Shown: piece after piece, positions 10,477-54,891 of the stretch
Layout of the letters: the number at the start of each line of letters is the position of its first letter
Numbering within the stretch: the stretch's first letter is position 1
From: Onthophagus taurus
Taxonomy: Eukaryota > Arthropoda > Insecta > Coleoptera > Scarabaeidae
Reading direction: 5' to 3'
DNA: 64,000 nucleotides
NCBI RefSeq assembly: GCF_036711975.1
Contig: NC_091968.1
Location: 21,948,001-22,012,000 of the forward strand
Position numbers and translations under genes: made by a program
Notes under the pieces: model-generated
Databases searched by the model: none
The model's input: only the letters and a program-made list of their open reading frames with translations
What the model was told of the DNA's origin: nothing

Positions 10477-13400
10477 ATGGGTTCATCTAGGCATCGTGAT
10501 AGAAGTCGCGGTCGCGATAAAGACCGTGATAAAGACCGCGATAAAGATCGTGATAGAGACCGTGATCGAAGGGATAGAAAAAGGAGTCGTGATCGAGACC
10601 GTGATCGTTCACATCGTGATAGGGATAGAGATCGTGAAAGGGACCGTGATAGACGTGAAAGAGAACGCGAAAGAAGGAGTCGTAGTCGAAGCCGAGGTGG
10701 TGGAGGCGGTGAAGGAGGAAGTGGGGTTGTTATTCCAGGGGGGAGTGTTATTAACAACATTGGTCTTGCTGGTATTGGAATTCCTGTAAGTGTCGCGCTT
10801 GAAAAGCATCTTCCACTTAAAGAAAAGACTCCTGAGCAAGATGGAGAAAAGTTATTGGCTGAAACGTTGGCTACTTTGGCGAATTTTGCTGCAACTAGGC
10901 AATATACAACTTTTAACACTACAATACATAAAATTGAGCATGAGGATGCTCATGATAATTGTGGGTTATTAAGATTTTTGTTGTAATTGATTTAATTAGG
11001 TTATGTTTTAGCCGGTATGGGAAGTGATGATTTGCGATCTAAAAAAAGGAGATCTCGTTGGGGTGGAAGTGAACACGATAAAATATTTATTCCTGGGATG
11101 CCAACAATTTTGCCTCAAAATCTTAATAAAGATCAGGAACAAGCATATTTACGTAAGTTAATTTATCATATGGTATTGATTTTTTAAATAAAATGTAAAT
11201 TAAATAAAATTAATTAAATAATAACAAAAAATTAATGAGGTAAGTTTAGCTGCAATGGAAAAAAAAAGATTTATATTATTTTCTTTTAGCAAATTGAATT
11301 TAACTTAATATTTGAGTAATAATTGTGTTTTTGTTATATTTTTTGTTGTACAATGATTTCTAACTGTTGGGCTTTGGCCCTATTCTAACCCGCTTTATTA
11401 CAGTTCAACTCCAAATTGAAGAGGTGAGCCGCAAACTGCGATCTGGGGACCTTGGAATTCCGCCCAATCCTGAAGAAAGGTTCGACACACCCCAACAATC
11501 TACAACTTCGTTTGTAACCGACCAAAAAAAAATTATAATAATACCAGCTCCTCCCCGAGTTTTTCGAAAACGACAAAAATCCGATGTTAAACGCCGCCAC
11601 ACGACGACTTCTTTTGCTTATTTCACAAGTAGAATTGACCCAAATTGACGGAGGAATTCTTTAAGATTTACTTTTTATTATGTGAATTAGAAAACTCCGT
11701 TGATTTTGTGATCAATAATTTTTTTAATCTAATTAATCACTTTTTTTAATCTTTATTATTTTTTAATTTATTTTTATGGGTGATTAGAAATGAATTAATC
11801 TAACAAGGGAATTCGATTTCATTGCAATTTGGTACAGTGATAGTTTGGGCCAAAATAAAGCCATTTAATCATCACCTGCAAAGATATGGGGTGAAATATA
11901 TAACCTCTTTCTGTATGTAATAATAATCTATACAGGGTGGTTCAGTTTTTAATCTGGACATAGTACTTGCTAAAATAACACAAGTTTTTTTGTATAAACA
12001 TAGGGTCGCAATTCTTTTTTTGTTTTCGAGCTATGAACTGTCAAAGTTGAGCCAAAAATTTACATTTCATCGTTTATTTCGGGTATGAGTAACCCATAGA
12101 ATTTGAGATTTTGTATGTATGTACTACTTTTTAATATCTTATTTTCAACCATACCTTAAACTTCCCTAGCGCCCTCTAAGGGGATGAAATTGACAACCCC
12201 TTTGATTTTTTTATAACAACTTCTTAACGCCATGGAATATTAACATAAAAAAATATGGGTTGTAAAGCTTATTCATTATTGGTACTTTTTTGTCTCTTTA
12301 GTTTTTTCCTTAAAGGTAATAGTTTTAGCATAAAAAAATAAAATATGCTACATTGTACTGTAAAGCGCTGCTATTATTAAAATAATTTTTTCTTTATAGG
12401 TGGCTATGGAAGTTGTGCACTTACTAGGATCTAGTACTAACTAAATAACACCAATTAATTGTGATTTTCATAAGAAAAACCATAAATAAGATTAATGCCT
12501 GTCTGAACAAATTGCGTTGTTTTAAACAATATTAAAAAATTGATACTCTTGCTTAATAAGCGTCAAAAATTATTAATAATCAGCAATAATTATGATGATT
12601 AAATGCTGTAAATGAAACTTACAAGTTCTCAGAGCCAACTTTTGGAATAATTTTGGCAAAACATAGCAGCATTTAGCAGTACATGGCACGATATTTTATT
12701 TTTTTACACGCAAACTATTAACTTTAAGAAAAATACTAAAGAGACAAAAAAGTACCAGTAAAGAATGAGCTTTACAACCCATATTTTTTTATGTTAATAT
12801 TCCATAGCGTTAAAAAGTTGTTATAAAAAAATCAAGGGGGTGGTAAATTTCATCCCCTTAGAGGGCGCTGGGGAACTTTAAGGTATGGTTGAAAATAAAA
12901 TATTAACCAGTAGTACATACATACAAAATTTCAAATTCTATGGGTTACTCATACCCGAAATAAAAGATAAAATGTAAATTTTTTTCTCAACTTTGATTGC
13001 TCATAGCTCAAAAAAAAGAGTTGTGACCCTATGTTTATATAAAAAACTTGTGTTATTTTGGCAAGTACTACATCCTAGTAAAGTTTCCCGATTATAAACT
13101 GAACCACCCTGTATACAGTGTGAGTTATTAATTAGTATCCTGGCGGTCGATAGTTACTAAACCGTTTGAAAAACAAAAAAATATTTTATACAAAAGTTGT
13201 TTGACTCATCACTTTCTATTACGTAAAATTATTTTCACTTATACAGGTTCCATTTAAGCGTAACGAAGAATACGTCAATTTGTTTTAATGGAACACCCTG
13301 TTTATTTTATCATATTATGAATACAACTAAATTTGTTTATACAAACCTATCTGTTACTAATTCACAACGTTCATAGTTCCTGAGATATACAATTGTTCTT

Positions 13401-16400
13401 CCAAAATATGCCCATTACAGGATTTTTTTAAAAACGATGTAAAAACGACATTTTTTCCAATTTTGTCTTGAAACTACGTCAGATAATAGTTAAAGCCTGT
13501 AGGTAGATGATAGTATTCAAAGATATTAGATACACTATACAGGCTGTTTATAAAGCTTAGTTACTTTTGATGTTTTTCAAATGGCTTTTTCTTAAGTTTT
13601 TTAAATGGAACAGCCTGTATATTGTGTGCTAGTTGAATTGGTCATCAAGTTCCCTTTAATTCATGATAAGTATGTTATATGTCTAACTTTAATAGTTTTC
13701 CTGATATTTCAAACTTAAAGAAAAATATGTAATATGTCATTATTGTACCTAAAAAAGTGACTGAATGCCTTTTTTTGTCACTTTTCTTTTGTTTTTTCAT
13801 TTTCATTTGTCTGTCATTTGTAAATCAGTAATATTATATTAAAATACAATTAAATGGCAGAACAATAAATCCCTTTTTTAATTACTAAATTATATTTGGA
13901 GGAATTGCAGCAACAAACTATTACATTATTATTATTAAACAATTACTGAACGTTGCTCAACAAGTAGGTATTAATTTAATTAATATTTAGAAGTTGTTCA
14001 ATATGCCGCCCATTTTCTCTTCTACAAGCATTAATGCGCTATATAAAGGACCTTGAGGTATCTCTTAACATGTGCGTCTTATTTTCTCTAAAGTCGCAAA
14101 TTACATGGAATATAGAATAATTCTATATTTTAACCAAGTCGCATTAAAATTTGGTATATGGCAGCAAAATTATTTTACATTATAAAATATTAACCAAATA
14201 ATAAAAAGAAAAACAAAAAAATGATAAAAATAGACAGAATATAATATTAAGTACAATAACGCATATTTTATTACACATTACTCTTTAAATTCTAAATATC
14301 AGGAAAAGTACTAAAGTAAGATATATGACATACTTATCATTAATTAAAGCTAACTTGACGGGTAATTCAACCAGTACACAATATACAGGATGTTCCATTT
14401 AAAAAAACCTATGAAAAAGCCATTTGAAAAACATCAAAAGTAACTAAGCTTTATGAACACGCTGTATAGCGTACCTAATATCTTTGGATACTATCATTTA
14501 GTTACTGGTTTTGACTATTATTTGACATAGTTTCAAGGTAAAATTAGAAAAAATGCCGTTTTTCCAAAGTTTTTAAAAAGATCCTGCAATGGACATATTT
14601 TGGAAAAAAAATTGAATATCTCAGGAACTATGAATGCTATGAGTTAGTAACATATATGGTTGTATAAACAAATTTAATTCTATTCATAATATGATAAAAT
14701 ATACAGGGAGTTCAATTTAAAAAAATCTACTAGATACTAATAACTCACGCCATATAATATTTTGAAGAAATTAGTAAATTAGTTGAAAATTAAGATTTAT
14801 GCAGTAAAATAAGCCCTATACGACTTTTAGCGGTGGATTTTGGTACAATTTAACGCAATGATTTCATTATATCATCCATGTTCAATGTGGTTGGGTATTA
14901 TCATTATTCTTAAGAGTTTTCCTAGAGGTTTCATTTTATATTTTGCAACATTTTTAAACTGACAATATAAAGTCGACATTAGGGGCCACTTTCATTACAC
15001 CTTACACTGGGCTGAATTCCGATTCTAGCTGGACAAAATTATTTTATGGACTTAACAAGGGCTAGAAGGGTAGAAAAAGTAGGTGTTTTAGTTTTCAGAA
15101 GATTAACTGAGTTTTCACATATTTTTTAGGGAAAAATTAGTATAAAATAATATGCAAAGATAAAATAAATACTAATTTAGTTTCTAGTTAAAAGAAGAAC
15201 TATTTTTATAAAAATTCAAAATACGAATCGTCTTCTGATTCGCTTGGAGAATCCTTCTCCGTTTCGCTATGCTGCTCATCAACTATATCCTCTTCCACTG
15301 AATCCGTGATCAGCTCCCTTGCTTCAGAACTCAGCTCCTTCAATGGGACTTTCTGGAACGATCTAAGGCCTGTAATAACAGGATCCGATGATATTAAAAG
15401 CATGTGAACTAAGTCTTTTATATATGAGGACTTTCTAATGTGTTGGGCTCTGAATCGCCTCATGTACTTATTCCTTGCCTCCTCTGAACGCTGTCCTAAA
15501 GAGCTTTTATGTAGACTGGGAGGCATCCTGTACCAGCCATATAGCTCCACAAACAGTTTAGTAGTATTATAGGTAAATGTGTTTTTTTTTTCTTGTCATT
15601 GTCTTTGTGAACAATTTGAGGAAGTTGTTTTATCAACTCCTGTAGCTGCAGCGGCTTCATCTGCATGCTTAAAAAATCGGCAGGACACGTTCCCAGTGTT
15701 GGACATCCCACTTCCTTGAACCACTTTGTCCACTTTTACAGTGTGTGCTGGAAGGCTTCCTGTATCAACCATCAATGACCTCAAAAACCCCCCATATCAA
15801 GCTTTGCGTAACCTATATCTCTATATTGTATCCGCCATCTTGATTTTTGAAAAGTTTTTAACTCTGACTCCAGATTTGTAATATTATTTATTGTAATATA
15901 TACTTATATCCCAGATACCTTAAATGAATTAAAAACTTAAGATATGGAGGTGAGTTGACATACTAGATTAATCCTTCTAAATCAATGTCAGCATCTTGGT
16001 GAAATTATTATACCTTCAAAGGTGCAGGCAATTACCACACTCTTCATGAAAAGGACGTGAAGAGTTGAATCATACCGCAGCCATTAGTGTGTCTTGAACG
16101 CAAGTAGAATGGATCATTTTTGAACAAAATTATTCTAACTGATGAGGTTCACTTTCATTTGCCTGGTTATGATGTCAACAAGCTAAATTGTCTGACTTGA
16201 AGCTCTGAAAACCTAAGACAGGTTACTACTATAAATGATTTTTTTATCCCGAAATTGATGCTATGGATGTGGATGACGTGTATTATCAACAAGTTGGTGG
16301 AACATGCCACACTGCTCCTGAACGATTACTATATTGCGTACAAATTTTTCTGTACGTGTAATTTCTCGAATTGGAGACATCAATAATTGATACATGCCAA

Positions 16401-31095: not shown

Positions 31096-32017
31096 CAGGT
31101 GTACAAAAAGTTAGCAACGAAGATGTTTGGAATCGGTATAAGCTCCGCCCATCCCTGTGACGTCAAGGCTTAGGTTGTGTATCCCATAACTTGGTCGTCG
31201 CTACATCAAATCTTTTTAAATAAAAGTTACAATATCTCGTTTAAAGCATTAAAACCTTATGGCATTTTGCAACACCTTGTCAAAAGGAATCCAAAAACCT
31301 TAAAATATACAGGGTGTCCCACGATGAACTGCGTCGATCGATATAGGAGAAACTATGAGTAGTATCTTTCTGAAAATTTGTAGGCGCACTTAAGTCGATA
31401 TGCCCAACTCACCTAAAATATTTTCAAGACTGTCGCACTTCCGGTTATACCGGAAGTAGACAACAACTTCGTTATTTTAAATGGAACCACCTATATATTA
31501 TTACATATTTAGATTCTACATCCGATTTTAATTAACTTTTACTTAAACATCTTATATAAAATTCTTACCCGTTTCTGAAATATTTACAAATTTATGTAAA
31601 AAAATTACCTATGCAGGCTTGTATGTTATGTGTATTTCTGCTAACACTGTTAAGTATTTGTTATATCTGATGAAAGGAATTTGAAGAAGAGACTATAGCT
31701 TAACTTTTGGTAGCTCATATGTTGTCCTACTACATACAGGGTGTTCAAAAAAAGCTGCCAAATATTTATATAAGAAAAAGCGAAAAACTCAAAAAAATTA
31801 AATGGAAACCATATATTTTTTTAATTGTATCTGAATCTACATTAAAAATAAAGGTAACTTTATGTAAGGTTCCCTATATCTAACTATCGCCGTTTCTTTG
31901 TAATTTTCCTTTTAAATAGTTTAAGATTATTCAAAACAATTTTGTGTCAAAGACGGCCATGACTACCGAGAAACAAATGAAGGTAACACAAATGTCATAT
32001 CATTTATAAAATTCACT

Positions 32018-32215
32018 ATGCCCGCACGTTTAAATTATACTAATGAAGATTATCTAAATCTATTTATTATCTATGGAGAATGTAACAAAGTTTTAACAAG
32101 AACATGCGATACATTTGCTGCTCGATATCCGCGAAAACGGAAACCATCCCCGAATACCTTAAAACAAATAATTCATAACTTCAACATTTTAAACAATCTC
32201 CCGAGAAACAAATGA
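32018..32215 (+). pseudogene. Inverted copy of the transposase N-terminus in the left arm
   Basis: Plus-strand frame starting MPARLNYTNEDYLNLFIIYG and continuing through FAARYPRKRKPSPNTLKQII, ending shortly after where homology to the minus-strand gene stops. It is the N-terminal DNA-binding segment of the same transposase and retains the roughly 125 bp that the main copy (right arm) has lost. It is present because the left inverted arm extends into coding sequence. It could not encode a full transposase by itself. Confidence 0.8.
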
Positions 32216-32278
32216 AAGTATGACAAATTATGTATTAAGTAATTTGTATTTAACGTACTAAGTATGAGAAAACTAACT

Positions 32279-33293
32279 CTACTTTAATAAATGTTCAAAA
32301 TTTTTCCCTTGAACTTCTAAACATTTTTCGCATCGCAAGATGACTTGTTGATGGGTAGCCTTTCTCAAAAAATCTGGATTTAAGTTATTGAACGCATTTC
32401 GCACTCTTTCCATACAATTTTCCTGAGTGGTCAATGTCGTGCTATAAACTTGATTTTTGATAGTACCCCATATAAAGTAATCTAAAACCGACAAATCAGG
32501 TGATCTAGGTGGCCACAAGAAAGGTCCATTATTAGCAATCCATTGGCCATTAAATATATTTTCGAGGAAATTGCTAACTAAATAGCCGTTGTGCGGAGGC
32601 GCTCCATCGTGTTGGTAAAAAATTTGTGTTAATTCAACCAGAGGTAAATTTTCTAAATAATTAGTATCAAAATTTCGTAAAATGTTTAAATATCTTTCGC
32701 CTAGAAAAAAATTAATTGCAGCAATTAAAATTAATTGTAAATTATTCGTTATACCAATTATTTCTTAATTATTTACCATTTAGATTTTCCTCATAAAAAT
32801 GCAACGCTACTACTCTATCGTTTCTTATAGCGCAGTAGACATTGAATTGCCAGCTTCCTTGAAAATTACTCGTCGTAAATTTGTGAGGATTAGAATCACT
32901 CCAATAATGCGAATTATGTCTATTAAACAAACCATTTTTGGTAAATTTTGCCTCGTCAGACCAAATAATATTGTCCAAAAATTGATTATTTCCATAGTGT
33001 TCAGTTAAAATAAATTCACAAAAATTCACTCTTCTTGCGAAGTCAGTATCTCTTAAATGTTGCACTATGGAAATTGAATACGGATGATACTTATGTTTTT
33101 TCAAAATTCTGTGGATTGAGCTTTTGGAAAGTCCAGATTCTTTTGAAACTTGTCTGAGAGATATTGTCGGATATGCATTGAAATATCCTAAAACAGCGAT
33201 TTCCACATTTTCATTATCTACAATAGGCTTCTTTTTGAGAACTTTTCCTTTTACGGAACCATGTGTCTTGAAGTTATAAATTATTTGTTTCAA
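32279..33293 (-). CDS. Rosa-like DD41D mariner transposase, one intron, N-terminus deleted
   Basis: The frame opens at about 33293 (LKQIIYNFKTHGSVKGK). It shows a helix-turn-helix (ISLRQVSKESGLSKSSIHRI), first catalytic Asp in IIWSDEAKF, second in IFYQHDGAPPHN and third in RSPDLSVLDYF. I count 41 residues between the second and third Asp (DD41D). Genomic DNA has a stop near 32769, but removing a 76-nt GT-AG intron (32701-32776; donor GTAAAT, acceptor TTTTTTCTAG) restores ENLNGERYLNIL, the expected motif, and an open frame to the stop at 32279. The start region is damaged: ATG at 33311-33313 runs out of frame after a deletion of about 125 bp relative to the copy in the opposite arm. So the catalytic part looks intact but the native N-terminus is lost. 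It would cut and paste the element at TA sites if functional. Confidence 0.85.
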
Positions 33294-34258
33294 GGTGAAT
33301 TTCGTTCGGGCATAGTGAATTTTATAAATGATATAATGACATTTGTGTTACCTTCATTTGTTTCTCGGTAGTCATGGCCGTCTTTGACACAAAATTGTTT
33401 TGAATAATTTTAAACTATTTAAAACGAAAATTACAAAGAAACGGCGATAGTTAGATATAAGGAACCTTACATAAAGTTACCTTTATTTTTAATGTAGATT
33501 CAGATACAATTAAAAAAATATATGGTTTCCATTTAATTTTTTTGAGTTTTTCGCTTTTTCTTATATAAATATTTGGCAGCTTTTTTTGAACACCCTGTAT
33601 GTAGTAGGACAACATATGAGCTACCAAAAGTTAAGCTATAGTCTCTTCTTCAAATTCCTTTCATCAGATATAACAAATACTTAACAGTGTTAGCAGAAAT
33701 ACACATAACATACAAGCCTGCATAGGTTATTTTTTTACATAAATTTGTAAATATTTCAGAAACGGGTAAGAATTTTATATAAGATGTTTAAGTAAAAGTT
33801 AATTAAAATCGGACGTAGAATCTAAATATGTAATAATATATAGGTGGTTCCATTTAAAATAACGAAGTTGTTGTCTACTTCCGGTATAACCGGAAGTGCG
33901 ACAATCTTGAAAATATTTTAGGTGAGTTGGGCATATCGACATAAGTGCACCTACAAATTTTCAGAAAGATACTACTCATGGTTTCTCCTATATCGATCGA
34001 CCCAGTTCGTCGTGGGACATCCTGTACAGGTGTTCTATTTAAAAAATACACCATGTCGTAACTCATCATTTTTATTTTATTTCTACGCCAAGATATGCGG
34101 AAAATAGTTTCAAATAACTTTTATTTAAAACTTTTTTATTACAAGTTGAAGTTTAGGTAGTAGAACCATTCCATACTTTTTGTACAGCCTGTATATATAA
34201 TATAGAAACACAAAAAGAATAATTAATGAATAAAATTTTATTTTAGCATAACCCTTTT

Positions 34259-38935: not shown

Positions 38936-40313
38936 AGATGAAATTTTTAAACGAAGGATATTAGAAGTGTATATTATTACAATATTTTACATAAAAATGT
39001 ATAACGTAGTATTTATATTGAAAAACACAAAACATAATCACATTTATAACTCAAAAAAGTAGTTTACTGTTACATTCACAATCAAAACATCTCAAAATTT
39101 ACATACTAATTAATGTTTGGTAGGTCCTCCTTTGGCAGCAAGAACTGCTGCTAATCGTCGAGGCATAGAATCAACTAAATTAGCTGTAATTTCTGGTGAA
39201 ATACTCTTCTATTCTCGTAATAGTGCAGCTTTTAAGTCATTTTTATTTTTAATATCTAGTTTCCGAATTTTGCGGTCAAGAAGCTCATAGATACGTGCTC
39301 TATGGGGTTTTGTTTAGGGACATTATATAATATCGACTCCGTTCCCAAGCTTAGTTTATTGACGATTCCTTTAAATTAGTTCGCAATATGTTTAGATATA
39401 TATATAGCGATCCATAATTGTTTCAACAAATACTAAACTTCTTACACCAGCCCCCGACATACAACCCCATACCATTACATTTCCTCCGCCATGCTTTACT
39501 ATGGCTTTTAAGTTTTTCTTTTTCATTTCTTCGTTGCCGAAAATATTGAACTTGCTTTCGTCCGAAAATACAACGGTACGCCAGAAAGTAGTATTCTTTT
39601 GCTCATGTAATTTGGCAAAATCGACTCTTTTTTTCGCATTTATTTCGGATATAAACTCCTTTTTTCTTGGAACTCTACTGTTATAACCTTCACTTCATAA
39701 CACCTGTCTAACTGTTTCTAAATTGACGGTTATAGAGCTTGATGCTGCGAGTGATTTGGTTATATCAACCGCAGTTGTTGTCGGCTGATCGTTGATCGTT
39801 TTTAAAATTAATCGCTTATCTCTAGGTGTCAGTTTACGTGGTCGGCCACCTCTTGGTTTGTTTTCGATTGACTGACGTTCCTTATAATTACGAATTACTG
39901 TCTGGACCGAAGAGCGACTTTTACTAACTATTTTTGCGACTTCAGTTAATGAACGACCATTGTTATGATTGTGAATTATGATATTTCGCACTCCAAGAGG
40001 TATTCCTTTCCGTTTAGCTTCCATTGTTAGGAGGATTACTAATTACTCTAATTATACGCAAACTACATCAACTATGATGTTTACAAATAAAAAGTAGTGT
40101 GGGGTTATATCTGTATGTAGACTTTTTTGAGTTACAAATATGATTATGTTTTGTGTTTTTCAATATAAATAATAAGTTATACATTTTTATGTAAAATATT
40201 ATAATAATATACACTTCTAATATTCTTCGTTTAAAAATTTCATTGAATTACATTTCAGGAGCGGAACTATTATGATTTTCTGGGGTGTATGTAGACTTTC
40301 TTGTACCACTGTA
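38933..40313 (-). mobile_element. Tc1-like transposon, decayed
   Basis: Inverted repeats at about 38942-39060 and 40110-40245 share GAAATTTTTAAACGAAG, TATTAGAAGTGTATATTATTA and CAAAACATAATCA. The right end is complete (TGTAGACTTTCTTGTACCACTG before a TA at about 40312); the left end lacks the outer 65-70 bp. The transposase N-terminus is readable on the minus strand at 40024-39695 (SLTEVAKIVSKSRSSVQTVI, then GRPRKLTPRDKRLI). Downstream pieces (FGNEEMKKK, AAVLAAKGGPTKH at the end) are broken by stops. Confidence 0.8.
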
Positions 40314-41966: not shown

Positions 41967-41989
41967 GCATATATATATATATATATATA
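41967..41989. repeat. AT microsatellite
   Basis: About eleven AT dinucleotides directly abut the CAGGGTGTCTCACG tip of the next foldback, a TA-rich target for a TA-inserting element. Confidence 0.9.
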
Positions 41990-43266
41990 CAGGGTGTCTC
42001 ACGTAACTGGTTCGTTAGAACTTTTTTAGGTTCCACTATTCGTAGAGGTTTTGAAATTTTGGTAGCATGGGTTGTTCATTCTGAACTTTCAATCTAAAAT
42101 ATTTTCAAGATGGCCACCACTTCCGGTCTACCGGAAGTAGACCACAACTTCGTTATTTTAAATGAAATGTTATAGTTTTTATTACACCTTTCAATTATAC
42201 ATAAAAAAATATGTTGACTTTGATAAAAGTTGTTGGTACCTACCATTTTTTGTTTTCAAGTTATTTTAATTTTAAGCTTTTTTTGGCAAATTTCACCATG
42301 CTCTTTAAAAGTCTATATCTCAGTTAACGTTCATTAAAAAAAACCTCTAAATTGGCACGATTACTCTTCAGATGTTGCCAAATAGATTGACATTTCTTGT
42401 ATCAGAGTATCTTATACAGGGTGGTCAAAAATTGAATTACCGTTTCTCCATATTCAATGGCTAGAAAGTCGAAAATTTTAAATGGAATACCCCGTATTTT
42501 TTTACCCTATCAGAAAGGGAATTTAATTCTCTACAAATTATCTATAAACATTCCTATACCTATTTATTGTAGTTTCCCTGATATTGGGACATTAATCAAA
42601 GCATGCACGGAATGCGGGAAAACGTTTGATTTTTTTATTAGAAGGCAATGGAATTTTGACAGTTTTTGGTCCATATTTGTGTTATTGTTGTTGTTACTTA
42701 CTTTTGATCACGAGTGAAAGTCATTGTATATCATGGCAAATTATTCCAACGCCGATATTTTAAATTTGTTTTATATTCATGGCAATGGCCTCCACGATCT
42801 CCAGATTTAACACCATTGGATTTTTATTTTTGACCACTCTGTATAAGATTCTCTGATACAACAAATGACAATCTATTTGGTAGCATCTGTAGAGCAGTCG
42901 TGCCAATGCAGAGCTTTTTTGAATGATCGTTAGCTGAGATATGGGCTTTTAAAGACCATGGTGAAATTTGTCAAAAAACACTTAAAATTAAAATAACTCG
43001 AAAACAAAAAACGCTAGGTACCAACAACTTTTATCAAAGTCAACATATTTTTTGACGTATAATTGAAAGGTGTAATAAAAACTATAGCATTCCATTTAAA
43101 ATAACGAAGTTGTGGTCTACTTCCGCTAGACCGGAAAGGGTGGCCATCTTGAAAATATTTTAGATCGAAAGTTTAGAACGAACAACCTGTGCTACCAAAA
43201 TTTCAAACCACTACGAATAGTGGAACCTTAAAAAGTTCTAACGAACCAGTTACGTGAGACACCTCT
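41990..43266. mobile_element. Foldback element D with inner element at its centre
   Basis: Tips CAGGGTGTCTCACGTAACTGG (left, 41990; only the first 20 bases are intact on both sides) and CCAGTTACGTGAGACACCTC (right). Both arms contain GTTCGTTAGAACTTTTT, the CCGGAAGT dyad (42119-42138; degenerate at 43119-43137), and AAAAGTTGTTGGTACC. The arms end at GTATCAGAGTATCTTA and TAAGATTCTCTGATAC, whose midpoint is a TA. An inner element occupies that point. Confidence 0.85.
42418..42841. mobile_element. Inner element of D: deletion derivative of a DD41D transposon
   Basis: 424 bp between CAGGGTGGTCAAAAATTG and AATCCA...TTTTGACCACTCTG, flanked by TA. It contains a start-like MANYSNADILNLFYIHG (from 42733), the N-terminus of a mariner transposase. 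This runs directly, after a large internal deletion, into QWPPRSPDLTPLDFYF, the block around the third catalytic Asp. That pair of motifs dates it as a non-autonomous derivative of the same transposase type as 32279-33293. Confidence 0.8.
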
Positions 43267-46905: not shown

Positions 46906-46913
46906 TTCATATA

Positions 46914-48253
46914 CAGGGTGTCACACAAAAAACGCCCCAAGCTGTAACTCTGTCATTTACAGTCCGATTTTCATGAGTGAGGTAACAAATGAAATGGTTT
47001 GATGAATACTATGATGCATGCTACAAATAAATTTTTTCCAAGACCATCTTCAATTTTAAACGATTATTAACTTTTGTTTTTCAAATTGCTCCATATATTT
47101 TTCTTCACGTCATTGGATGGAGATTGTTTTTCTGAATCCATTGATATACAAGACATCCATTTTGAAAGTAATTTTAGCAAAGAAAAGACACCTGTATATA
47201 CAGGTTATCACACAAGAAAGCCGCAAGCTGTAACTTTGTCATTTACCTTCTGATTTTCATGAACGAGGTATGAAATGAAATGGTTTGATGAATACTATGA
47301 TTCATGCTACAAATAAACTTTTTCCAGCGCTATCTTTCATTTCAAGCGATTATCAACTTTTGATTTTCAAACTGCTCGGTATGTTTTTCTACACGTTATT
47401 GTATAGAGATTTTTTTTTCTGAACCCAATGATGTACAATACATTAACATTAATTGTAATTTTAGCAGAGAAAAACAATTAAAACATTATCCGAACATTGT
47501 CTTAGTCACTTCTGTAATACTGTGTGCCATGGAAGAAAGAACGCGCAAAACTGATAACAGTCATTAAATGTTATTTCAATGCCCGAAGCAGTTGTAAATG
47601 ATACTTATAACTTGTGTTTTTATTGTTTTTCCCATGGCACACTACAGTATAATGCAAGTAATTTTAAGAGAATGTTAGGAAACTATTTTAATGTTTTTCT
47701 ATACTACAATTACAATTAATGTTTATGTATTGTACATCAATGGATTCAGAAAAGGAATCTCTATCCAATAGCGTGAAAAAAAACATACCGAGCAATTTGA
47801 AAATCAAAAGTTGGTAATCGCTTGAAATTCAAGATGGCGTTGGAAAAAGTTTATTTGTAGCATGAATCATAGTATTCATCAAACCTTTTCATTTGATATT
47901 TCGCTCATGAAAATCGGAATTTAAATGACGGAGTTATAGCTTGTGGCATTCTTGTGTGACAACCTGTATATACAGGTGTCTTTTTTCTGCTAAAACTACA
48001 TTTAAAATGGATGTATTATACATCAATGGATTCAGAAAGACAATCTCTATCCAATGACGTGAAGAAAAATATACGCAGCAATTTGAAAAACAAAAGTTAG
48101 TAATTACTTGAAATTGAAGATGGCGTTGTAAAAAATTTATTTGTAGCATGAATCATAGTATTTATAAAACCATTTTATTTGATACCTGGGTCATGAAAAT
48201 CGGAATGTAAATAACAGAGTTACAGGTTGGGGCGTTTTTTGTGTGACACCCTG
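46914..48253. mobile_element. Foldback element E, outer copy
   Basis: Tips CAGGGTGTCACACAAAAAAC (46914) and GTTTTTTGTGTGACACCCTG (48253, minor differences), flanked by TA. Mirror blocks include TGAAATGGTTTGATGAATAC, TGCTACAAATAAA, CAAATTGCT and ACATCCATTTTGAAAG. The arms converge on GACACCTGTATATACAGGTGTC, the dyad centre, where a second copy of the same family sits. Confidence 0.88.
47201..47966. mobile_element. Foldback element E, inner copy of the same family
   Basis: Tips CAGGTTATCACACAAG (47201) and CTTGTGTGACAACCTG (47966); TA on both sides. The arms are homologous to the outer element (AAGCTGTAACT, TTCATGCTACAAATAAACTTTTTCC). Its own centre holds another mirrored pair, ACTGTGTGCCATGGAAG (about 47519) and CCCATGGCACACTACAGT (about 47631), possibly a fourth boundary. 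Confidence 0.85.
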
Positions 48254-48346
48254 TATATGTGCAGGACTTCAGGAAGTGATAGCTTGTCGAAAAATTTGAA
48301 AAAAATGTCTATCAACTTACCCTCTAAAATGCACCATTTTCGAAAT

Positions 48347-48610: not shown

Positions 48611-48684
48611 AAGCATTTTCTACTCACAATCTGTGTTGTTAAATACCCGGGTATTTATTTTCAAGAGTAAATTTCCTTGATATA

Positions 48685-49320
48685 CAGGTGTCTTACGTAA
48701 CTGGTTCGTTAGAACTTTTTCAGGTTCCACTATTCATATTACACAGTTTAATTGTACGTAAAAAAATAGGTTGACTTTGATAAAAGTTATTGGTACCTAG
48801 CGTTTTTCGTTTTCGAGTTATTTTGGTTTTAAACTTTTTTTAGTAAATTTCAACATGCTCTTTAAAACTCCATATCTCAGCCAAAGTTCATTCAAAAAAG
48901 ATCTACTTTGGAACGATTACTCTTCAGATGTTGTCAAATAGATTGACATTTGTTGTATCGGAGTATCTTATACAGGATGATCAAAAATTGAATTACTGTT
49001 TCTCCATATTCAATGGCGAGAAAGTCGAAAATTTTAAATGCAACGCCCCATTTTTTTAGCCTATCAGAAACAGAATTTAATTCTCTACATATCATCTATA
49101 AATATTCCCATACCTATTTATTGCAGTTTGCCTCATATTGCGAAATTTATTAAAACATGCACGAAATGCTGGTTTTTTTATTAGAAAGCTATGGAATTTT
49201 GACACTTTTTGGTCCATGTTTGTATTGTTGCCATTAGTTATATTTGACGACGGGTGTAAGTCATTGAACATCATGGTAAATTATTCCAACGCCGATATTT
49301 GAAATTTATTTTGTATTAAC
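48685..49320. mobile_element. Partial copy of foldback D carrying the inner element at the same place
   Basis: Starts CAGGTGTCTTACGTAACTGG and follows the left arm of D (TGACTTTGATAAAAGTTATTGG, then TCTTCAGATGTTGTCAAATA, then GTATCGGAGTATCTTA). The inner tip CAGGATGATCAAAAATTG begins at 48973. The inner N-terminal transposase motif follows (NYSNADI). The right half is missing. Because the outer/inner junction is identical to that at 42418, the composite must have moved or duplicated after nesting. Confidence 0.82.
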
Positions 49321-49446
49321 GGCGAATGTAATAAACTTTTGGGCAGGACGTGTCGAACACTTAATGAGAGATGCCTAACAAACCTAACGCCGATCACAAG
49401 GAAAATTTTCAAAAAATTGATAAAGAATTTATTAGTTCTGGATATA

Positions 49447-50770: not shown

Positions 50771-51901
50771 AATGCCTGAGTTCAATTATACTCACTTCTT
50801 AGTTTAATTGATAAATAGAACACAATGGTTTATTAAATAAATTTATGTTTTTCTCTTTTAAAAAATATGACGGGCTTGAACAGCCAATGTGTTCTTAGAA
50901 TTTAGTTTTTAATCTAATTTTACCTTTTATATGTTATTTATTCTTTTACAAAAGTTGAACAAAATTAATTTTACAAACATATTTATAATAAAGTTTGTGA
51001 TATCTTCTTTATGGAAAAGAAATGTGAAGTTAACATTATGCCTGACATTATGACATATGACACTGACATTGCAAATTGTGTATGGCAGCGCTATCTAGTG
51101 GATTGTTATAGATAGTAAATAAAATTCCGTCTTCATTTAATACCTATCAACAAATCATACCCTGGTTTGTACCTGCAAAAAGTAAACTTGTATTACAATA
51201 TTAAAAATGAGTTACACAAACGCTGAAATGTGCGAAATGAAATAATATTACAGTGTAGTATTCCGCCGGGATACTAATAACTCACCCTGTATATAGGTGT
51301 CCCGTATCTTCTGTATCAGAGCATTATACGGTTGTAGAATACATTATTCTGAAGCGATCTTTTTAATAAAATTTTTCCGAAATGTTTATAATAACCGCAC
51401 GGGAACTGTTTAAAGATGTCTAATAGCGGATTCACGAATTTACGGAAAATGTTTACTTTTCTTTCCGTGTCGAATCTATTGGTGAGTACACGTGAGAAAC
51501 GTGTTATGATCGGCGCGGCGAACCGGTCGAGGGTTGGGCCGATTACCTGTATAATAATTAAATGAAAATAACTTAGGTTTGGTTAACATTACTTGTAACG
51601 TCACACAGTGTTAGAAAATTATGAATATCTGGCCAAAAATCTAATTACAACTAAATGAAGTTGAAAATGTTTAATACCATTATCATATCTCCTTAATGGT
51701 TAGCTAGGATTTATTTCATCTATAAATAGTGCTTAAAACAAAATTTAGGATTTTGAAACGAATATTTGGAAATAAAAGCGAAACAAAGGTTTTGTTGTGG
51801 GTTGGGTTGGATGTTCAAGCTAATGTAACTCCGAAAACATGGTACATTTATTTCATGTACCCTAACAATAAGTAATATATACTTATATACTATAATATAT
51901 A
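50771..51901. other. Spacer, no gene recognised
   Basis: AT-rich sequence with a lone ATACTAATAACTCACCCTGTA tip near 51272 (tip words shared with element B), and a 25-bp sequence at 51581-51605 that is repeated exactly at 56031-56055 upstream of COP1. Confidence 0.5.
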
Positions 51902-52317
51902 CAGCGTGTCTCACGTAACTGGTTCGTTAAAACTTTAAGGTTTCACTATTCATAAAGGTTTGAAATTTTGACATCATAGGTTGTTCATTCGGAACAATCG
52001 ATCTAAAACATTTACAAGATGGCTGCCACTTCCGGTCTACTGGAACTAGACCATAACTTCGTTATTTTAAATGGAATGCTACAGTTTTTATTACACTTTT
52101 TAATTGTACATAAAAAAATATGTTGACTATTAAAAAACAATTAAAGACAATTCAAAGGTGTAATAAAAACTGCTAAAAACTATTTCTGGTAGACCGGAAG
52201 TGGCAGCCATCTTGAAAATATTTTAGATCGAAAGTTCCGACTGAACAACCCATGCTACCAAAATTTCAAAACTGTATACAAATAGTGGACCCTAAAAAAG
52301 TTACGTGAGACATCCTG
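51902..52317. mobile_element. Short shell-only copy of foldback D
   Basis: 416 bp from CAGCGTGTCTCACGTAACTG to GTTACGTGAGACATCCTG, TA on both sides. It keeps the outer-arm features (ACAAGATGGCTGCCACTTCC, degenerate CCGGAAGT dyads at about 52028 and 52185) but has no inner element and a deleted middle. Confidence 0.85.
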
Positions 52318-52330
52318 TATACACTGTGTA

Positions 52331-54378: not shown

Positions 54379-54891
54379 TATTAAAATAATAAACAAATAA
54401 ATATAACTTCTTATCTTGCAAATTCAATTTATTTTAACGGAACCGGTTTCGACTAGTTTTACTTAGTCATCTTCAGCCGAATGGTCAATAAAAAATAAAA
54501 TCAACATCACAAAGAGCATATAAATAACATTTTAAAAAATGTGAAATTACACCTTAAAATATAATATATAAATAAATAAACTGTAAAAAGACAAAACCAC
54601 ATAAGTTCTTACACAAACGATGTACAAAATAAAAAAAAATTTTTGTACATCGTTTGTGTAAGAACTTATGTGGTTTTGTCTTTTTACAGTTTATTTATTT
54701 ATATATTATATTTTAAGGTGTAATTTCACATTTTTTAAAATGTTATTTATATGCTCTTTGTGATGTTGATTTTATTTTTTATTGACCATTCGGCTGAAGA
54801 TGACTAAGTAAAACTAGTCGAAACCGGTTCCGTTAAAATAAATTGAATTTGCAAGATAAGAAGTTATATTTATTTGTTTATTATTTTAATA
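54379..54891. mobile_element. Perfect 513-bp palindrome inserted in the LINE
   Basis: Two 251-bp arms (54379-54629 and 54641-54891) appear identical base for base in inverted orientation, around a short A-rich spacer centred at 54635. Ends read TATTAAAATAATAAAC. Each arm contains GAACCGGTTTCGACTAG and the complement of CTGAAGATGACTAAG. No coding. Near-zero divergence means the palindrome is very young or kept identical by gene conversion. Confidence 0.92.

Follow-up and report, generated by a model that had tools for sequence, protein, structure and literature searches.

In a window of 64,000 nucleotides from the Onthophagus taurus genome (C3:21948001-22012000), three foldbacks each carry an inner element at the TA in the middle of the outer palindrome, raising the question of whether palindrome centres are repeatedly hit by transposases or whether the nested symmetry arises in another way. 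The geometry described in the initial annotation (31735/33598, 42416/42842 and 47199/47967) is confirmed in all three, off by 1-2 bases at most, and the palindromy of the outer arms reaches the junction TA in each case. The parts of the three structures are as follows:

31308..31734, plus strand: left outer arm of case 1 (O1)
31735..33599, unstranded: inner element of case 1 (I1), which has long inverted arms and contains transposase pieces
33600..34026, minus strand: right outer arm of case 1, mirrored O1
41988..42414, plus strand: left outer arm of case 2 (O2)
42415..42843, unstranded: inner element of case 2 (I2), a copy with an internal deletion
42844..43263, minus strand: right outer arm of case 2, mirrored O2
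46912..47192, plus strand: left outer arm of case 3 (A3)
47199..47968, unstranded: inner element of case 3 (I3)
47974..48256, minus strand: right outer arm of case 3, mirrored A3

The terminal TA of the right arm of case 1 (34025-34026) is common to the adjoining element. The 426-bp inner piece of case 2, considered as a whole distinct insert, is a deletion derivative; this candidate was rejected, as other copies possess a longer inner part, approximately 1,050 bp in locus L006, and the window copy is internally deleted. Further case-2 copies are situated in the window at 48683-49328, where one O2-I2 half remains and an arm is deleted, and at 51900-52319, where an O2 foldback has lost its inner part. 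Inverted repeats of 123 bp (95%) bound an element at 38938-40243 that has an apparent broken Tc1-type transposase on the minus strand, judged by eye, and a near-perfect palindrome of about 510 bp, with 98% identity between its arms, a very short centre and no TACAGG termini, is located at 54379-54891.

Family-level searches of the 290.8 Mb genome (33 contigs) and 116 fetched loci, some of them overlapping, reveal how constantly the outer and inner parts occur together. Of 43 O1 candidates, 40 were scored, and I1 adjoins O1 in every one of these (30 read, 10 judged from position). O1 likewise adjoins all 41 I1 ends with at most two mismatches, 38 by position and 3 by reading, with only about 26 bases of O1 left at one of the latter three. 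In the case of case 2, 38 loci were fetched, 8 with a junction-spanning query and 30 with an O2-only query, corresponding to 32 distinct places (6 were fetched twice). I2 material follows O2 on at least one side in 38 of 38, with a small change at one O2/I2 junction in four loci (L017, L018, L019 and L028) and an altered second side in L002 and L003. Exact O2 ends whose last printed base is not G number 327; of the 100 that were listed, approximately 94 continue by eye into the start of I2, and none shows a mirror-image continuation of O2. Five of the remaining six were read: two enter a diverged I2, two meet another element at that TA, and one is unclear. Foreign elements at O2 ends are seen from the near side in L094 and L096. 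Meanwhile, five case-2 copies at C7:27.60-27.85 Mb (L013, L017, L018, L019 and L028) have a common left flank, resembling a duplicated segment or an assembly repeat.

In each case, outer and inner parts together form a single transposon family and are mobile as one unit. The idea of independent insertions does not survive, each nest being a multi-copy family with a constant junction, and the argument that random TA insertion would rarely be central three times fails because the three nests are not independent events at this locus. As a shared structure the central position is more than chance, yet the count of three is no measure of targeting.

The three foldbacks, initially called unrelated, are in fact partly related. 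O1 and O2 are homologous (80% over 110 bp, E=1e-20); their inner halves show no similarity, scoring 20 where shuffled sequence averages 20.5. I1 and I2 are weakly similar: their local score is 41, whereas the best of 300 block shuffles reaches 28, and leaving out the first 30 bases gives 38, with a best shuffle of 29. In case 3, the outer and inner arms are 83% identical to each other. Because each unit is an amplified family and case 1 is homologous to case 2, three independent centre hits were rejected as an explanation; these two cases could share a single nesting event. Different shells and families have in common a short subterminal motif around GTTATTTTAAATGGAACACC (window 31464-31502 and 42475-42504; L108:765-820; L110:700-745), perhaps part of a common end module.

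Three transposase pieces are recognized in I1:

31925..32215, plus strand: N-terminal piece on the left arm side (Pfam DUF4817, E=3.3e-8)
32279..32764, minus strand: C-terminal piece, with 41 residues between the second and third D
32769..33347, minus strand: piece with an HTH (HTH_Tnp_Tc3_2, E=1.2e-4, below the curated cut-off)

Pfam yields only weak HTH matches and DUF4817 for these pieces, and a comparison with solved structures gave no match. From 5303 candidate relatives of this transposase, 150 of them scored, 10 were chosen for long frames and varied identity. The spacing between the second and third D is 41 in eight of them and 42 in one (L111), and was not found in the longest frame of L108; inverted repeats of 116-666 bp surround the frame in eight, and none were found in the other two. 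The case-1 arms are about 720 bp long, and where the ends of a copy are intact, the TA of TACAGG stands on either side as the target duplication. The three structures are two-shell transposons, and by D spacing, TA duplication and long terminal inverted repeats (TIRs) they resemble the rosa/LTIR (DD41D) Tc1/mariner group. The aphid rosa and LTIR-like elements, as described in the accessible part of PMC5490172, share the DD41D spacing and the TA duplication, have TIRs that reach about 460 bp in the LTIR clade, and also give rise to derivatives of MITE type through internal deletion. The present elements contain nested termini within their TIRs, a feature that the same part of PMC5490172 does not mention; a light literature search found no account of concentric shells in rosa/LTIR-like elements, and no claim of absence is made.

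The left and right arms of each structure agree to nearly the same degree in the outer and inner parts. In case 1, the identity is 97.88% in the outer and 98.63% in the inner part (Fisher p=0.58), and in case 3, 88.97% and 88.13% (p=0.79). In case 2, the values are 92.52% and 92.79% over the 13 distinct loci, out of 32 distinct places, in which both arms are nearly complete (inner part taken as its first 185 bases), with p=1.0 at one representative locus. Within each case, the outer and inner arms look as if they were made symmetric together. One copying event per family would yield such equal divergence; an inner palindrome entering a fresh outer one, or later homogenisation of the arms, would also do so. 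The case-1 arms agree without a single mismatch over 267 bp across the O1/I1 junction, 9 of the 13 mismatches between them lie within the outer 300 bases, and the palindrome stops near the likely transposase start, as this start is read from the sequence.

Insertion targets were compiled from 24 case-1 copies, 22 of which provided 31 intact flanks; the count omits ends that are damaged or unmatched, and L081, a truncated copy, is not in the set. TG precedes the TA in 24 of these 31 flanks, against 367 of the 5593 TAs in the window. CCTG ends six of the 31 flanks, five being recognized as the end of another element and the sixth (C6:31.6 Mb) by motif only, and among sites of the TG|TA type, CCTG accounts for 6/24 case-1 sites against 48/784 in the window (p=0.003). 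Over 12 bp, the two flanks of a copy match each other symmetrically at 4.9 positions on average, and cross-paired flanks at 4.07 (16 copies, of which 7 have a damaged end). In the case-2 family, most flanks end in TA by eye. The dyad of a long palindrome is occupied by one of the nine case-1 copies with both ends intact, a small sample, at C5:7.66 Mb. This site is a chain of an element E, the case-1 copy, a mirrored E and then a further family, each pair of neighbours having a common TA; both E elements are complete, and their interiors differ by 6.6%. A single recent palindrome was set aside here because the E interiors (93.4% alike) are less alike than the TIRs within each E (96.9 and 97.6%). 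An element between two members of the same family always resembles an insertion at a palindrome centre because the ends of such members are inverted repeats; a centre-of-palindrome reading can thus come merely from inverted-repeat elements at one TA. The suggested preference of transposases for the looped tip of an extruded cruciform finds no support in a short TG|TA preference, this flank symmetry and the one long palindrome hit, at C5, that is a two-element junction. For comparison, PMC6911290 reports no more than a slight preference of LTR elements for palindromes, and short symmetric target motifs are described for the P element and Galileo; the short symmetric motifs are alike, but their scale is about 6-15 bp and not that of long foldbacks.

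The symmetry probably derives from end capture plus mirror copying, rather than from repeated insertion at palindrome centres. An element would insert within a relative, or right beside a relative at a common TA; an element end beside TG would make TG|TA|CA, at which the case-1 family inserts preferentially. Events of this kind exist among present copies: at C15:0.555 Mb a case-1 copy lies within an O2/I2 junction, and in L069 and L070, X elements are inserted in the left A3/I3 junction only. These two X insertions look separate because the inserts are 87-94% alike (main pieces), with hosts at least 96% alike to the window. Both loci belong to a group of eight (L069-L076), chosen from 40 scored A3 rows for having no clear inner neighbour, which by eye contains three insertions at or near the A3/I3 junction (L069, L070 and L071), one element abutting the A3 inner end (L073), two insertions in the arm (L072 and L076) and two deletions (L074 and L075); their positions are not used as a statistic because of this choice. 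Subsequently, the stretch from the junction to the terminus of the relative would be copied mirror-wise onto the opposite side, by template switching or by gene conversion between long inverted arms, and the inner element would therefore be central by construction. The product, with the terminus of the relative at both ends, would then amplify as one unit, as the copy numbers demonstrate, and repeated cycles of capture and copying would generate concentric shells. The alternative offered in the initial annotation, that replication or repair of palindromes makes centre-nested forms, fits better than the cruciform tip; insertion and unit amplification are seen, and the copying between them we infer. 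Neither an intermediate with a captured end on one side only nor a donor in which O1, O2 or the outer shells of L108 occur without the inner part turned up among the loci examined.

Mirrored pieces are also situated away from the centre. Two of the ten chosen relatives (L108 and L110) contain mirrored inner termini, those of L110 being an extra terminus in each arm within a small piece of about 46 bp. A similar arrangement exists in the window:

13242..14736, unstranded: broadly similar foldback that contains nested termini
13538..13621, plus strand: mini-element in the left arm, off-centre and bounded by a terminus on either side
14384..14463, minus strand: mirrored mini-element at the matching place in the right arm

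The mini-element occupies the same off-centre TA in both arms and is 92.9% alike between them, against 85.4 and 82.3% around it, a borderline difference (p=0.054). According to the accessible part of PMC4168063 (section 10), a transposon in one TIR of Galileo in Drosophila willistoni was transferred to the other TIR and became part of both ends of copies that transpose. The feature of this type, a foreign element at the same off-centre site of both TIRs, is present in 13538-13621/14384-14463 and in L110. Galileo also possesses long TIRs that have recruited parts of the transposase frame, so that, as far as this part of PMC4168063 describes it, the likeness comprises long TIRs, frame parts within them and an element gained at both ends. 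Unlike Galileo, which belongs to the P superfamily and generates target duplications of 7-8 bp, the present elements insert at TA and have a DD41D transposase, with a separate terminus at the start of each shell. A 7-8 bp duplication does not occur here; with TA only, they are not Galileo members, though they work like its third pattern of TIR extension.

A spacerless palindrome with a TA at its dyad might instead have been hit through a preference for a short palindromic site or an extruded tip and then amplified. The case-2 dyad TTA|TA|TAA matches the flanks of its family, which mostly end in TA by eye, the C5:7.66 Mb dyad holds one of nine intact case-1 copies, and the near-perfect palindrome at 54379-54891 indicates that spacerless palindromes can exist in this genome, a point against end capture. 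We nevertheless consider such an origin unlikely: an exact search with spacers of 0-30 detected no empty case-1 palindrome (O1 plus mirrored O1), O2 lacks any mirror continuation among the 100 ends listed out of 327, the case-1 dyad ACA|TA|TGT is unlike the present TG|TA preference of the family, the C5 palindrome is composed of two complete E elements with diverged interiors, and the off-centre mirrored pieces are left unexplained. Alternatively, an element could be flanked on each side by an abutting member of one family, whether these arrived after it or it entered between two that already adjoined, with the outer members later shortened and the whole mobilised. The C5:7.66 Mb chain with its common TAs, the CCTG flanks recognized as element ends and the terminus-like sequence at both ends of A3 agree with this origin; as the A3 inner end ACACCTGTATA is terminus-like, case 3 may be such an abutting sandwich. 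It misfits cases 1 and 2 because the inner ends of O1 (CTACTACA) and O2 (ATCTTA) are not terminus-like, and both outer members would need shortening to the same point on each side; overall it appears improbable, its weight resting mainly on case 3. Long palindromes are difficult to assemble, and the flank common to five case-2 places at C7:27.6-27.85 Mb would suit collapsed or mis-joined palindromes; however, identical junctions recur with different flanks on many contigs, and an artefact can hardly explain the nests.

End capture with mirror copying may extend beyond the three structures. In the L108-type family, represented by 22 copies, three concentric shells are formed; in the one copy read (L108), the left and right sides are identical in the outer two shells (123/123 and 299/299) and agree at 225/239 positions in the third. 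Shell two precedes all 44 exact ends of shell three, and the same shell-one end precedes 45 of 46 exact ends of shell two, the 46th (L116) having a diverged shell one. The case-1 mismatches are mostly outer while the outer shells of L108 are perfect, so the tract that was copied need not be the outermost. Tentatively, these transposons may repeatedly gain the end of another family on one side and mirror it onto the other, changing the ends that the transposase sees. If so, concentric shells would be an ordered record of past end swaps, and each shell would be a complete end module, consisting of a terminus and the common subterminal motif, through which a new mobilising transposase could be adopted in one step. 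The favoured reading removes the apparent case for cruciform-tip targeting and puts in its place a testable explanation for the growth and turnover of long inverted ends, and if end capture were general in these elements, it would bear on how non-autonomous families gain new transposases. L116 itself (C16:1825350-1826050) is by eye a chimera, in which the diverged L108 shells one and two are followed by an apparent I2 end adjoining a reversed O2 arm.
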